This document shows, piece after piece, positions 30,139 to 63,697 of a stretch of 64,000 nucleotides of DNA. Origin of the DNA: Argonema antarcticum A004/B2 (GTDB taxonomy: Bacteria; Cyanobacteriota; Cyanobacteriia; Cyanobacteriales; Aerosakkonemataceae). A program made the translations under genes and the position numbers. The stretch spans positions 1 through 64,000 of the forward strand of contig NZ_JAIQZN010000004.1 in the NCBI RefSeq assembly GCF_023333585.1, written 5' to 3'. Under the pieces are notes generated by a model that had not been told where the DNA came from, did no database searches, and saw only the letters and a program-made list of their open reading frames with translations. Numbering within the stretch: position 1 is the stretch's first letter; every line of letters begins with the position of its first letter.

Positions 30139-30171
30139 AGAAACCGGGTTTCTTGGAGAAACCGGGTTTCT
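30139..30171. repeat. Two AGAAACCGGGTTTCT palindromes
   Basis: Copies lie at 30139-30153 and 30157-30171, directly behind the MBL gene. They belong to the same family as at 14235, 30861, 31639, 32415, 63702 and 63720. Confidence 0.85.
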
Positions 30172-30829: not shown

Positions 30830-30874
30830 ACTTATTCCATAGTCAGCACTTGCAACGCTTAGAAACCGGGTTTC

Positions 30875-31243
30875 TTATCCCAGTGTCAGCACTCCCAGTG
30901 GCGAATCTACCACTAATCTCATATTTGTAAGCCATTGCAAACCGAGCAAAGGTTCGGGAATTCCCGCACCAACATGAACGGGAATAGTGTATTCAATTCC
31001 ATCTAGTAATATCTTTCCTTCATAGATAGTAAAAGTGTCCTCCCCCTGTGCTGTTCGCATAGTTCGATCGCGGACTATCACAGGCCAACCTAAACTTTGT
31101 GCGTCTTGGGTGTCTATGGCTAGATAGCCAGTAGTAAATCCAGTATCTACTAATACATCAACTGGAAGCACATCTCCATCGGCAGCAATCAAATCAATCT
31201 CAAAAAATAGTTCGCCAATCTCACCAAATTTACCAGAAATCAT
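30875..31243 (-). CDS. Retropepsin-like aspartic protease (array unit 1)
   Basis: 122 residues. A single-lobe clan AA aspartic protease: a beta hairpin, then VDVLVDTGFTTGYL with the catalytic Asp33-Thr-Gly, a variable middle, and the closing LLDGIEYTIPVHVGAG and EPLLGLQWL (the LLG that supports the fold). One lobe implies that the active form is a dimer, as in retroviral enzymes. It overlaps its partner gene by 4 bp (ATGA-type coupling). An AGAAACCGGGTTTCT palindrome begins at the stop. Substrate unknown. Confidence 0.85.
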   Translation of the reverse strand: MISGKFGEIGELFFEIDLIAADGDVLPVDVLVDTGFTTGYLAIDTQDAQSLGWPVIVRDRTMRTAQGEDTFTIYEGKILLDGIEYTIPVHVGAGIPEPLLGLQWLTNMRLVVDSPLGVLTLG

Positions 31244-31560
31244 ATCATGCCGCAGGCTCCTGTCTCGTTAATGCGAAAAGTAACAAGCCAGTCTGAAGGA
31301 TACTTTTGACGAGCTTTTTCGACGGCAAGATTTTCATCGGGATCGATGAAATAATCGCCACTATTTGGTTCTATAATCATAAACCAGTTATAATGGTCTG
31401 CTATTAACTCATCGCGCCATCGTTCAAAAACTGGACGAGTTCGCTGATAGCGTGCTTTTCGTTCGGCTTCGCTTCGTGCTAATTCTTCCGGCGGTATAGT
31501 ATATTCTGGGAAAATTCTGCCGCGACGGATAGGACGTTTGGTGGGTTGTTGAGTCGTCAT
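31240..31560 (-). CDS. Small partner protein of retropepsin (array unit 1)
   Basis: 106 residues: a basic start TKRPIRRGRIFPEYTIPPEELA, a helical Arg/Glu-rich stretch (about 28-50), then HYNWFMIIEPNSGDYFIDPDENLAVEKARQKYP and FRINETGACG at the end. No catalytic motif. It is cotranslated with the protease. It may be a substrate, inhibitor or chaperone of that enzyme; this is inference from coupling alone. Family name not recognised. Confidence 0.75.
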   Translation of the reverse strand: MTTQQPTKRPIRRGRIFPEYTIPPEELARSEAERKARYQRTRPVFERWRDELIADHYNWFMIIEPNSGDYFIDPDENLAVEKARQKYPSDWLVTFRINETGACGMI

Positions 31561-31651
31561 TTTTGTTGTCCCTGTTTAAGATAAAAGGATATTTTAATTA
31601 TATCAAGTAGAAGGTTTAAAAAAGGCATTTGCCACTCATAAACCCGGTTTC

Positions 31652-32020
31652 TTATCCCAGGGTCAACATTCCCTGTAGGGAATCTACCACTAATCTCATA
31701 TTTGTAAGCCATTGCAAACCGAGCAAAGGTTCGGGAATTCCCGCACCAACATGAACGGGAATAGTGTATTTAATTCCATCTAGTAATATCTTTCCTTCAT
31801 AGATATCAAAAAATTTCTCTCCTTCGGCTGTTTGCATAGTTCGATCGAGTTCAACTACAGACCAACCTAATCCTTCTAAGTCTTGAATATTTATCGCTAA
31901 ATATCCAGTTGTAAACCCTGTATCCAGTAAGGCATCAACTGTAAATATTTCTTCGCTAGCTGCAATTAAATCTATTTCAAAAAATAGCTCTCCTATCTCG
32001 CCAAATTTACCAGAAATCAT
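31652..32020 (-). CDS. Retropepsin-like aspartic protease (array unit 2)
   Basis: 122 residues with the catalytic DTG at 33-35 (DALLDTGFTTGYL). Residues 1-20 and about 78-115 equal those of units 1 and 3, while the middle (ASEEIFTVDA and NIQDLEGLGWSVVELDRTMQTAEGEKF) is distinct. It lies exactly 777 bp from the corresponding genes of units 1 and 3. Overlap with its partner is 4 bp. Confidence 0.85.
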   Translation of the reverse strand: MISGKFGEIGELFFEIDLIAASEEIFTVDALLDTGFTTGYLAINIQDLEGLGWSVVELDRTMQTAEGEKFFDIYEGKILLDGIKYTIPVHVGAGIPEPLLGLQWLTNMRLVVDSLQGMLTLG

Positions 32021-32337
32021 ATCTTACCGCAGGCTCCTGTTTCATTGATTCGGAAAACAGCGAGCCTGCCAGAAGAGTACTTTTGACGAGCTTTTTTGAT
32101 GGCGGTATCTTCATCAGAATCGATGAAATAATCACCACTATTTGGTTCGATAATCATAAACCAGTTGTAATGATCGTTTATCAACTCATCGCGCACTCTT
32201 TCAAAAACTGGGCGACAGCGTTGATATCGTGCTTGTTGTTCGGCTTCGCGTCGTGCTAGTTCTTCCGGCGGTATAGTATATTCTGGGAAAATTCTGCCGC
32301 GACGGATAGGACGTTTGGTGGGTTGTTGAGTCGTCAT
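32017..32337 (-). CDS. Small partner protein of retropepsin (array unit 2)
   Basis: 106 residues. Identical at the N-terminus to the other units (TTQQPTKRPIRRGRIFPEYT), then it differs in the helical part (RREAEQQARYQRCRPVFERVRDEL) and in DSDEDTAIKKARQKYSSGRLAVF. It keeps HYNWFMIIEPNSGDYFID and the FRINETGACG end. It is the most divergent of the three partners. Confidence 0.75.
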   Translation of the reverse strand: MTTQQPTKRPIRRGRIFPEYTIPPEELARREAEQQARYQRCRPVFERVRDELINDHYNWFMIIEPNSGDYFIDSDEDTAIKKARQKYSSGRLAVFRINETGACGKI

Positions 32338-32428
32338 TTTTGTTGTCCCTGTTGAAGATAAAAGGATATTTTAATTATATCAAGTAGAAGGTTTAAAAAA
32401 GGCATTTGCCACTCAGAAACCCGGTTTC

Positions 32429-32797
32429 TTATCCCAGGGTCAACATTCCCTGTAGGGAATCTACCACTAATCTCATATTTGTAAGCCATTGCAAACCGAG
32501 CAAAGGTTCGGGAATTCCCGCACCAACATGAACGGGAATAGTGTATTCAATTCCATCTAGTAATATCTTTCCTTCATACAAATCAAAAAGTGACTCGCCT
32601 TGTGCCGTTCTCATCGTTCTATTCAAGTCGATAAAAGACCAACCCAAACCCTCTAAGTCTTGAGTATTAATGGCTAACCAGCCAGTTGTAAAGCCTGTAT
32701 CCAGTAGTGCATCTACTGAGAATACTTCTCCATTAGCTGCAATCAAATCAATCTCAAAAAATAGTTCGCCAATCTCACCAAATTTGCCAGAAATCAT
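32429..32797 (-). CDS. Retropepsin-like aspartic protease (array unit 3)
   Basis: 122 residues from ATG at 32797, which restores the 4-bp overlap seen in the other units; a start four codons earlier is possible. DTG at 33-35 in VDALLDTGFTTGWL. The middle region (NGEVFSVDA; DLNRTMRTAQGESLFDLYEG) partly resembles unit 1 and partly unit 2, a mosaic pattern. The C-terminal block is the same in all three. Confidence 0.85.
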   Translation of the reverse strand: MISGKFGEIGELFFEIDLIAANGEVFSVDALLDTGFTTGWLAINTQDLEGLGWSFIDLNRTMRTAQGESLFDLYEGKILLDGIEYTIPVHVGAGIPEPLLGLQWLTNMRLVVDSLQGMLTLG

Positions 32798-33117
32798 ATC
32801 ATGCCACAAGCTCCACTTTCATTAATTCGGAAAGAGACAAGTATGTTACCACGGGGGTACTTTTGACGAGCTTTTTCGACGGCAAGATTTTCATCGGGAT
32901 CGATGAAATAATCGCCACTATTTGGTTCTATAATCATAAACCAGTTATAATGGTCTGCTATTAACTCATCGCGCCATCGTTCAAAAACTGGACGAGTTCG
33001 CTGATAGCGTGCTTTTCGTTCGGCTTCGCTTCGTGCTAGTTCTTCCGGCGGTATAGTATATTCTGGGAAAATTCTGCCGCGACGGATAGGACGTTTGGTG
33101 GGTTGTTGAGTCGTCAT
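32794..33117 (-). CDS. Small partner protein of retropepsin (array unit 3)
   Basis: 107 residues. The first 88 residues equal unit 1 exactly; the end differs (RGNILVSFRINESGACG), with one extra codon. It is first gene of the array in transcription order. Its 5′ flank departs from those of units 1 and 2 about 15 bp before the start, so unit 3 probably carries the original promoter. Confidence 0.75.
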   Translation of the reverse strand: MTTQQPTKRPIRRGRIFPEYTIPPEELARSEAERKARYQRTRPVFERWRDELIADHYNWFMIIEPNSGDYFIDPDENLAVEKARQKYPRGNILVSFRINESGACGMI

Positions 33118-33438
33118 TTTTGTTGTCTCCGTTCAAGCTCGAAGGATATTTTAATTATACAGCGGGAACCGCTGTAATACAGTACATTTTAAGTAGTAGC
33201 TCCGCATTCCGGTAATTAACCTCTGCATATAACCAATAAGTTATTTGCCGGAATGCTAATGAACTGGGCACGCTGAGCGAACGCCCTTATGTTTGTACCT
33301 CATAACAGCGGAAACCGCTGTATCAAATAGAAGATTTAAACCTGTATTTTAGGGTAGATAAGCTGCTACGCATCTAATTTTACAGTCAACTGATATTCTT
33401 GTGGGATGGACATACAAGCCCCGTCTTTTTATTCGATT
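33118..33438. other. Non-coding stretch with paired ACAGCGGnAACCGCTGT palindromes
   Basis: About 320 bp with no gene. Palindromes ACAGCGGGAACCGCTGT (33159-33175) and ACAGCGGAAACCGCTGT (33305-33321) enclose an inverted repeat with arms GCATTCCGG (33204) and CCGGAATGC (to 33256). This looks like a decayed small repeat element. Confidence 0.55.
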
Positions 33439-42222: not shown

Positions 42223-42456
42223 TTAACGCTCTCCTTGTGCCAACAACTCCTCAAACTCTTGCACCGAATTTACAGTAATAGCGCGTTTATGCAGTCGTTT
42301 CAGTAGCGCTAAATCTTCGATCGCAAAAATGCTACTCCTTAAGGCATCTGGCACAGTTAAAAACCGCGTTTCCAGAACATCAATAACATTTTCGCGAGAC
42401 ATTTGCAGGCGACCCTGCTGTATACCATCCCGCTCAAAACTGGTAATGTATGGCAT
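42223..42456 (-). CDS. Truncated Rpn-type C-terminal domain, duplicate 1
   Basis: 77 residues from MPYITSFERDG, preceded by gaggaggaaaggcga, an excellent ribosome-binding site. The sequence equals the C-terminal quarter of the full-length gene at 42747-43679 (VIDVLETRFLTVPDALRSSIFAIEDLALLKRLHKRAITVNSVQEFEELL). It arose by tandem duplication of the 3′ end; whether it is made or used is unknown. Confidence 0.6.
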   Translation of the reverse strand: MPYITSFERDGIQQGRLQMSRENVIDVLETRFLTVPDALRSSIFAIEDLALLKRLHKRAITVNSVQEFEELLAQGER

Positions 42457-42478
42457 TCGCCTTTCCTCCTCTATCCCA

Positions 42479-42724
42479 TTAAAACTCTCCTTGTGCCAAC
42501 AACTCCTCAAACTCCTGCACAGAAGTAACAGTAATAGCGCGTTTAAGTAGTCGTTTCAGCATTGCTAAATCTTCGATCGCAAAAATGCGATTTCTTAAGG
42601 CATCTGGCAAAGTTAAAAACCGCGTTTCCAGAACATCAATAACATTTTCGCGAGACGTTTGCAGGCGACCCTGCTGTATCCCATCCTGTATCCCATCCCG
42701 CTCAAAACTGGTAATGTATGGCAT
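42479..42724 (-). CDS. Truncated Rpn-type C-terminal domain, duplicate 2
   Basis: 81 residues from MPYITSFERDGIQDGIQQG, again with gaggaggaaaggcga just before the ATG. It has a 4-residue internal duplication (GIQDGIQ) relative to duplicate 1. It lies 22 bp behind the full-length gene's stop, counted from its start, so a ribosome could pass from one to the next. Confidence 0.6.
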   Translation of the reverse strand: MPYITSFERDGIQDGIQQGRLQTSRENVIDVLETRFLTLPDALRNRIFAIEDLAMLKRLLKRAITVTSVQEFEELLAQGEF

Positions 42725-42746
42725 TCGCCTTTCCTCCTCTATCCCG

Positions 42747-43679
42747 TTACAACTCTCCTTGTACCAATAACTCCTCAAACTCCTGCACCGAAGTAACAGT
42801 AATAGCGCGTTTATGCAGCTGTTTCAGCATTGCTAAATCTTCGATCGCAAAAATGCGATTTCTTAAGGCATCTGGCACAGTTGAAAACCGCGTTTCCAGA
42901 ACGTCAATTACAGCCTCGTGAGACATTTCTAATTTCGCATCCCGCTCAAAACTGGTAATGTATGGCATTCGCCTTTCCTCCTCTATTCGCTTGATTTCAG
43001 TTTTAAACTCCTGCTGAACTGCCTCCGGTAATGCCATGATCCATTCAATGAACCGGAACAACTCCAAAATCCGATTTTTACTATAGCCGCGCTCGTACAG
43101 TCGTCGCACTAACCTCAATTTTAACTGGAAACGGCGCGGTAAATCACTGCGTGTTGCTTGGGTTTCCAGATGCGCGGCGATAATGGTAGCAAAGGGATTA
43201 GTGCTTTCCTCTAGGGTAGCTGCTGGATAGTCGAGCAGTTTCACTACCGGAAACTGCAAACTGCTCTCAAATCCCCATCGACTATAACTATAGCCTGTCG
43301 GTCGCCAATTGGTGTTTTCGTCTCCCAATACGGCAAAGCTGAAGACTTTTTGCCGATAGCGATCGAATAACCGATGATTGTAAATATACATCCGCTCGGC
43401 AAAATCTGACTGCTCTTGTCCTTGAATTTCGACATGAATTAACACAATCGCTTCTTCGCCGGAGTTCAGCCATACTTTTACTAGCTTATCTGCTAAACGC
43501 CTGCCTGTCTCGGCATCGCGAATCACTTCTTGCAATTCGGTGTCTAAAGTTTCATAACCTTTCTCCCAATCAATATCGCTGTGAGTATCTGCAAAACAAA
43601 AAGCCATAAATGGCTCAAAATAGACAGTTAGGGCTTCTTTCCAAGCGCTGTCGTAGTCGGCTCGCACTTCATCTTCCAT
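42747..43679 (-). CDS. Rpn-family recombination-promoting nuclease/putative transposase
   Basis: 310 residues. The PD-(D/E)xK nuclease core is seen in DSAWKEALTVYFEPFMAFCF, DIDWEKGYETLDTELQEV, DKLVKVWLNSGEEAIVLIHVEIQGQEQSDFAERMYIYNHRLFDRY (ExQ motif) and FPVVKLLDYP. Rpn proteins cleave DNA and have been linked to recA-independent recombination and phage defence. The C-terminal 80 residues are a helical domain that has been copied twice downstream. Complete from ATG to stop, monocistronic except for the duplicates. Confidence 0.85.
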   Translation of the reverse strand: MEDEVRADYDSAWKEALTVYFEPFMAFCFADTHSDIDWEKGYETLDTELQEVIRDAETGRRLADKLVKVWLNSGEEAIVLIHVEIQGQEQSDFAERMYIYNHRLFDRYRQKVFSFAVLGDENTNWRPTGYSYSRWGFESSLQFPVVKLLDYPAATLEESTNPFATIIAAHLETQATRSDLPRRFQLKLRLVRRLYERGYSKNRILELFRFIEWIMALPEAVQQEFKTEIKRIEEERRMPYITSFERDAKLEMSHEAVIDVLETRFSTVPDALRNRIFAIEDLAMLKQLHKRAITVTSVQEFEELLVQGEL

Positions 43680-56666: not shown

Positions 56667-56869
56667 TATAGCTAGGGGCTATAAAAGTCAAAAGTCAAAA
56701 GTCAAAAGTCAAAAGTCAAAAGTCAAAAGTCAAAAGAAGAAACAAGAAACAAGAAAGGGGCTAGGGGCTAGGGAAGAGGGAAGAGGGAAGAGGAAAAAGG
56801 TTACGACCTAAGAGATTATGGACTTCATGTAACAGTTGGAGTTGCCCTCATCGCCCTAAAGTTGCTATA
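56667..56869. mobile_element. TATAGC/GCTATA cassette, inverted and expanded (203 bp)
   Basis: In reverse orientation it shows TATAGCAAC, gagggcaactccaact, gttacatgaagtccataatc-like text and CCCTCTT/CCCTAGC heptamers as in 33439 and 60626, with mutations in the hairpin. It also holds about seven AAAAGTC heptamers near the other end and closes with TATAGC at 56667, one base after the phosphatase stop. Confidence 0.7.
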
Positions 56870-60625: not shown

Positions 60626-60763
60626 TATAGCAACCGCTCTCGTCGGTTAGGGCAACTCCAACTCTTACCTCTGGTTCATAATCCCTTACTCCGTAACCGT
60701 TTTCCCTCTTCCCTCTTCCCTCTTCCCTAGCCCCTAGCCCCTAGCCCCTAGTCCCTAGCTATA
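60626..60763. mobile_element. TATAGC/GCTATA cassette with heptamer arrays
   Basis: 138 bp. First 58 bp identical to the copy at 33439. Then about three CCCTCTT and four CCCTAGC heptamers, and GCTATA. It ends 10 bp before the deacetylase ATG, so the heptamers occupy the promoter and leader of that gene. Confidence 0.85.
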
Positions 60764-63585: not shown

Positions 63586-63697
63586 TATAGCGCTGCGCGA
63601 ATACATTAGGACAGTATTAAACGCTTAAAGCAAGGCGGGGACTGTGTTTGTACTCAGCACTCAGCACTCAGCACTCAGCACTCAGCACTTTGCTATA
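63586..63697. mobile_element. TATAGC/GCTATA cassette with ACTCAGC heptamers
   Basis: 112 bp: TATAGCGCTGCGCGA, a unique middle, then about five ACTCAGC heptamers and TTTGCTATA. It has the same overall plan as the other cassettes but a different heptamer. Confidence 0.75.

Follow-up and report, generated by a model that had tools for sequence, protein, structure and literature searches.

Gene pairs of a large and hitherto undescribed family encode a retropepsin-like protease and a small partner protein on cyanobacterial chromosomes and plasmids

A retropepsin-like aspartic protease and a small protein encoded directly upstream of it make up a large, previously undescribed gene pair family that occurs on the chromosomes as well as the plasmids of cyanobacteria. 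Intact proteases almost always come with the partner, which makes control of the protease the probable role of the small protein. The window, by which we mean the whole 64,000-nucleotide stretch of Argonema antarcticum A004/B2 contig NZ_JAIQZN010000004.1 that was analyzed, carries three tandem copies of this pair, and the structure of this array, the distribution of the family, and the pattern in which its genes are lost are described here together with what they suggest about the role of the partner.

Results

A tandem array of partner-protease units

On the minus strand of the window lie three tandem two-gene units, each with the partner gene ahead of the protease gene. The features of the locus are the following:

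30875..31243, minus strand: unit 1 protease, an ORF of 122 aa, single-lobe retropepsin-like (clan AA, DTGF)
31240..31560, minus strand: unit 1 partner, an ORF of 106 aa with a basic tail, a long helix and a beta-beta-alpha-beta domain, of no known family
31652..32020, minus strand: unit 2 protease, an ORF of 122 aa whose core is nearest to that of the one unit in congener G001
32017..32337, minus strand: unit 2 partner, an ORF of 106 aa in ATGA overlap with the unit 2 protease
32429..32797, minus strand: unit 3 protease, an ORF of 122 aa with its ATG start within the ATGA overlap
32794..33117, minus strand: unit 3 partner, an ORF of 107 aa, one codon longer, with residues 1-88 the same as in the unit 1 partner
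30139-30171, 30861-30875, 32415-32429 and elsewhere in the window: dispersed palindromic repeat AGAAACCSGGTTTCT

The protease starts inside the stop codon of its partner in all three units (ATGA), in agreement with the 4-bp overlap of the original prediction; for the unit 3 protease, the ATG in this overlap was taken as the start instead of the upstream TTG at which the listed 126-aa ORF begins. Steps of exactly 777 bp had been proposed for both genes, and this holds for the protease starts, which are spaced by 777 bp twice, but between partner starts the steps are 777 and 780 bp, owing to an additional codon in the third partner. With three 300-nt copies that are 83-97% identical, the array is far beyond chance. 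The neighbors of the protease are its partner, a Uma2 gene (PF05685), and a gene for a metallo-beta-lactamase-fold protein. An Rfam search of the array found no structured RNA at gathering thresholds, and a promoter and terminator scan gave nothing above chance.

The palindrome AGAAACCSGGTTTCT stands at the end of each unit and had been counted as part of it, but it is a dispersed repeat and not a component of the unit, since the 7.74-Mb genome contains 453 exact sites against 0 for the reversed control. Eight exact and 2 one-mismatch sites fall within the window, and copies are often paired with an 18-bp step. Other repeats of the window are a 268-bp unit in tandem at 42418-42912 (1.8 copies, 93% identical) and heptanucleotide short tandem repeats (CCCTCTT/CCCTAGC, AAAAGTC, ACTCAGC) at 1-77, 56683-56736, 60702-60759, and 63652-63689.

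The protease and its partner

An AlphaFold model of the protease (pLDDT 89) matches Rickettsia APRc in Foldseek (5c9f_A, E 6.7e-7, TM 0.72) as well as viral retropepsins, and a profile search of the PDB finds APRc and Ddi1. Of the 109 distinct intact proteases, 106 have DTG as the catalytic motif and 1 has DSG, and the glycine of the hydrophobic-hydrophobic-Gly motif (G101 of LLG) is invariant in a 39-row alignment. With a retropepsin fold, a catalytic D-T/S-G motif, and a hydrophobic-hydrophobic-Gly motif, the protease belongs to clan AA, and it is predicted to form a homodimer because it is single-lobed and 122 aa long. APRc (PDB 5c9b/5c9d/5c9f) and the retroviral-like domain of Ddi1 have the same single-lobe retropepsin fold, APRc being about 23-26% identical to the window protease in structural alignment. 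We know of no coupled small partner described for APRc or Ddi1.

The window proteases resemble TIGR03698 (clan_AA_DTGF) in size, DTGF, the hydrophobic-hydrophobic-Gly motif, and gene order. By score they do not reach membership, however, with 34.1, 38.3, and 43.9 bits for units 1, 2, and 3 against a curated cut-off of 57.35 bits; the unit 1 protease is likewise under the cut-off of PF13975 (24.9 against 28.2 bits). TIGR03698 proteases above the cut-off have a homologous partner upstream, as in the window, and the family description does not include this partner. Matches to TIGR03698 occur in control genomes too, with Sulfolobus above the cut-off. In plasmid records, the protease is annotated as an aspartyl protease or retroviral-like aspartic protease and the partner as a hypothetical protein.

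In the model of the partner (106-107 aa; pLDDT 84), an exposed basic N-terminal tail of low confidence precedes a long helix (residues 24-56), after which comes a beta-beta-alpha-beta domain. The description of the partner as a small helical protein therefore captures the long helix but not the beta-beta-alpha-beta domain. Sequence searches of Pfam, NCBIfam, PADLOC, and the PDB gave no significant match, nor did a fold search, and in profile and fold searches we found neither a recognizable DNA-binding domain nor a known antitoxin or inhibitor fold. DUF5678 (PF18929) was rejected as an identity for the partner: a Pfam match is absent, and the hhalign score of 11.6 lies below the maximum of 19.9 among shuffled controls.

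Proteases are lost from pairs far more often than partners

The pairing is remarkably constant. Across all fetched cyanobacterial loci, which hold 182 instances of intact pairs (109 distinct), the ATGA overlap is present in 177. The 80 retained GTDB loci are all cyanobacterial, and in them a protease lies directly downstream of 79 of the 98 partner matches, 75 of these 79 with the 4-bp overlap. Both genes are under purifying selection, with dN/dS about 0.1, and at one locus (L280) they are fused into a single ORF. Distance correlations between the genes (0.48-0.62) equal those within them, at an effective number of about 65 and with phylogenetic confounding, and therefore show co-inheritance only.

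Losses were counted in 60 order-level relatives of the host, whose copies are not independent. An intact adjacent partner accompanies 58 of their 59 intact proteases, which bears out the original view of the pair as a coupled two-component system. The reverse does not hold: 35 intact partners have no intact protease, 15 of them with a broken protease and 20 with none. The single intact protease without an intact partner (G057:C69) is next to a broken one, and intact proteases without any partner match number zero in these relatives. Where both genes are detectable and only one is intact, a broken protease outnumbers a broken partner by 15 to 1, counted over copies that are not independent. Behind many solo partners, the terminal ATGAT and the protease-start codons after it (ATG-ATx) remain, so the protease was once present there and then decayed. 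In the host genome itself, there are 15 partners and, of the same branch, about nine proteases that are more or less whole. The one-way loss favors dependence of the protease on its partner.

Some partners are nevertheless maintained on their own. A clade of solo partners without protease (L014, L287, L288), spanning three genera, has dN/dS of about 0.15. In two genomes of one family, an M24 aminopeptidase P carries the partner domain at its C-terminal end (L087:2296-4044, L088:718-2355), and the domain is under purifying selection in these fusions as well (dN/dS about 0.2). Since both the fusion and the solo clade are conserved, the partner does more than neutralize a neighbor.

A sister branch and other clan AA proteases

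Classic DTGF proteases of the same genomes, one of which (L086) scores 63.1 bits against TIGR03698 and so exceeds the cut-off, have a 90-aa upstream partner of their own, joined by an ATGA or GTGA overlap. This partner is homologous to that of the window (hhalign 97.3%, E 2e-11, score 62.5, with no more than 15.9 in any of 20 shuffled controls) and lies immediately upstream of 30 of the 31 sister-branch proteases. In the exceptional locus (L085:1468-3244), a transposase-like insertion separates partner and protease. No such partner accompanies the DTGA/DSGA-type clan AA proteases that were inspected in these genomes, and they constitute an internal control for the pairing of the DTGF type.

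Clan AA proteases in these genomes show other arrangements also. The host has two near-identical tandem DTGA-type proteases without a partner (L238:985-1888), and at G032:C125:42403-44085 exact 472-bp steps lead through four equally scoring clan AA protease matches, which may be a further kind of protease tandem array. DUF5678 in relatives of the host is either fused N-terminally to a retropepsin-like domain or encoded directly ahead of one (L252, L253, L255, L257, L258, L261, L262, L265, L270, L273; L266, L274, L276), so that these loci, like the pair and in the same genomes, place a small domain N-terminal to a retropepsin, within one protein or as a gene of its own.

Distribution on chromosomes and plasmids

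The family is patchy, being present in 30 of the 60 relatives with 0-15 copies per genome. The partner occurs in 27 cyanobacterial plasmid records from several genera, most of which also have the protease. The pair stands directly beside ParA/ParAB genes on Nostoc sphaeroides p3, Nostoc sp. C057, Nostoc TCL26-01 pC, and Tolypothrix PCC 7601 unnamed10 and unnamed11, and such genes adjoin a partner without protease in Tolypothrix PCC 7910. This placement is suggestive, not conclusive, because by layout the plasmids reduce to about three types. Several other copies adjoin integrases, transposases, or Uma2, PIN, or RelE genes. A viral origin was considered and rejected: no relatives were found in viral contigs for the queries tried, nor relatives of the sister-branch protease in phage records; weak matches to PHROGs were disregarded.

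Recombination and purifying selection within the array

Codon comparison of the units supports the gene conversion or ectopic recombination that had been proposed for the array. Over residues 1-88, units 1 and 3 share an identical partner (dN 0, a few synonymous changes) while their proteases differ, as first noted, and the tract that diverges between these units starts at partner codon 89. Protease codons 78-122 are nearly identical in DNA between units (dS 0-0.09) and thus have been homogenized or recently shared. Residues 1-20 are the other end of the protease that was described as constant, and they are so in protein but not in DNA, which differs at up to 8 of about 12 synonymous sites (unit 2 versus the others), so this end is held by selection.

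Between these ends, codons 21-77 have dS of 0.74-1.22 and dN of 0.17-0.26 between units. The proposal that the protease has diversified around the DTG and the substrate-facing loops fails here, since dS is equally high and dN/dS along this core is about 0.2-0.35, with no sign of diversifying selection. The pattern of the array is one of recombination between units together with purifying selection, not of diversified substrate loops.

Two congeners have one unit each at the same chromosomal site. Over protease codons 21-77, the unit of G002 is the same as unit 1, with zero synonymous or amino-acid changes, and in G001 the unit comes closest to unit 2; this makes it likely that an older array underwent differential loss, or that units exchanged sequence. 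Arrays of 2-3 units are common in the family, with at least 2 partners in 14 of the 80 GTDB loci and another case at L244.

Discussion

What could the partner do for the protease?

We give about an even chance to the reading that the pair is a mobile two-component protease module, in which the partner is a dedicated controlling, and probably restraining (antitoxin- or inhibitor-like), subunit. With the partner gene first and the protease gene second, translational coupling through the ATGA would have the partner made first and at a fixed ratio to the protease. The protease, a putatively cytoplasmic enzyme that should act as a homodimer, may then be bound by the partner, which most probably would restrain a protease that is harmful or useless alone. 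Release of the protease from its partner, and a substrate for it to act on, are both presumed by such a mechanism. A controlling subunit that binds the protease is the best fit to a protease that is not kept without its partner, and the loss pattern together with the placement beside par loci favors restraint of the antitoxin kind. Against a restraining subunit, the partner has no known antitoxin or inhibitor fold and no recognizable DNA-binding domain, it is kept in the aminopeptidase P fusions and the solo clade, and both the intact protease beside a broken partner and the fused ORF fit restraint poorly. In addition, the one-way loss could stem from the protease gene lying downstream.

If the protease is indeed harmful by itself, then the pair could represent a novel type of module, serving plasmid maintenance or resembling toxin-antitoxin systems and expanded in cyanobacteria, in which a retropepsin-like protease of the HIV-protease fold is matched with a previously unrecognized family of antidote partners; we put this forward tentatively, as a possibility. 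Type II toxin-antitoxin modules share with the pair two small co-directional overlapping genes with the putative regulator first, mobility and presence on plasmids, sometimes beside par genes, and a pattern in which the putatively harmful gene is lost first (compare the 58/59 and 35 above). The difference is that neither gene belongs to a known toxin or antitoxin family. By term search, an aspartic protease pair is absent from a 2009 survey of toxin-antitoxin systems (PMC2701414).

Rather less probable, in our estimation, is that the partner is an adaptor or targeting subunit that delivers substrates to the protease, or binds it as it is made, so that a protease without its adaptor would be useless rather than toxic. 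Such a function is favored by the fusion of the partner domain to another peptidase and by the parallel layout in which DUF5678, unrelated by profile, is fused to or just upstream of retropepsins, and the conservation of solo partners fits it as well. An adaptor alone does not explain the placement beside plasmid partition genes, however, and the identical partner bodies of units 1 and 3 serve different protease cores, so no fine specificity is visible.

It is improbable that this is an ordinary housekeeping pair whose array and mosaic reflect tandem duplication and gene conversion with no special regulatory logic. The single units of the congeners, the frequency of short arrays in the family, and the adequacy of recombination and purifying selection to account for the mosaic all accord with such a pair, but patchy multi-copy spread, carriage on plasmids, and strongly one-way loss are atypical of housekeeping genes. 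Least of all do we expect the partner to be the substrate, cleaved as a switch or maturation step: fixed 1:1 coding and the exposed, poorly modeled basic tail would suit this, but a private substrate should be dispensable without its protease, yet solo partners persist under purifying selection, and a conserved cleavage-like motif is not established.

Relation to known systems and significance

Two bacterial retropepsin-like proteases of Pseudomonas, RimB (of rimABK) and RloA, work with operon partners (PMC11957791, PMC12239564). The partners of RimB are the ATP-grasp ligase RimK and the phosphodiesterase RimA (PMC11957791), and RloA, which is secreted, works with an ATP-grasp protein and with a membrane protein that is an inactive transglutaminase (PMC12239564). 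These are of different kinds from the partner of the window protease, and no RimK-like ATP-grasp gene was recognized at the window locus, which is not a RimABK-type operon. In our literature searches, which covered papers outside subscription journals and leave an earlier mention possible, nothing relevant was returned and no description of a retropepsin with a coupled small partner was found, in keeping with the original view of a system not known to be described.

Small retropepsin-like proteases are annotated throughout the cyanobacteria, but to our knowledge a substrate or regulator is known for few of those in bacteria. That the DTGF class is essentially always encoded with a dedicated, unnamed partner offers a direct handle on how such enzymes are controlled, and the survival of the partner without the protease, but not the reverse, is part of this handle. 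It also makes the pair a candidate protease-based addiction module on cyanobacterial plasmids.
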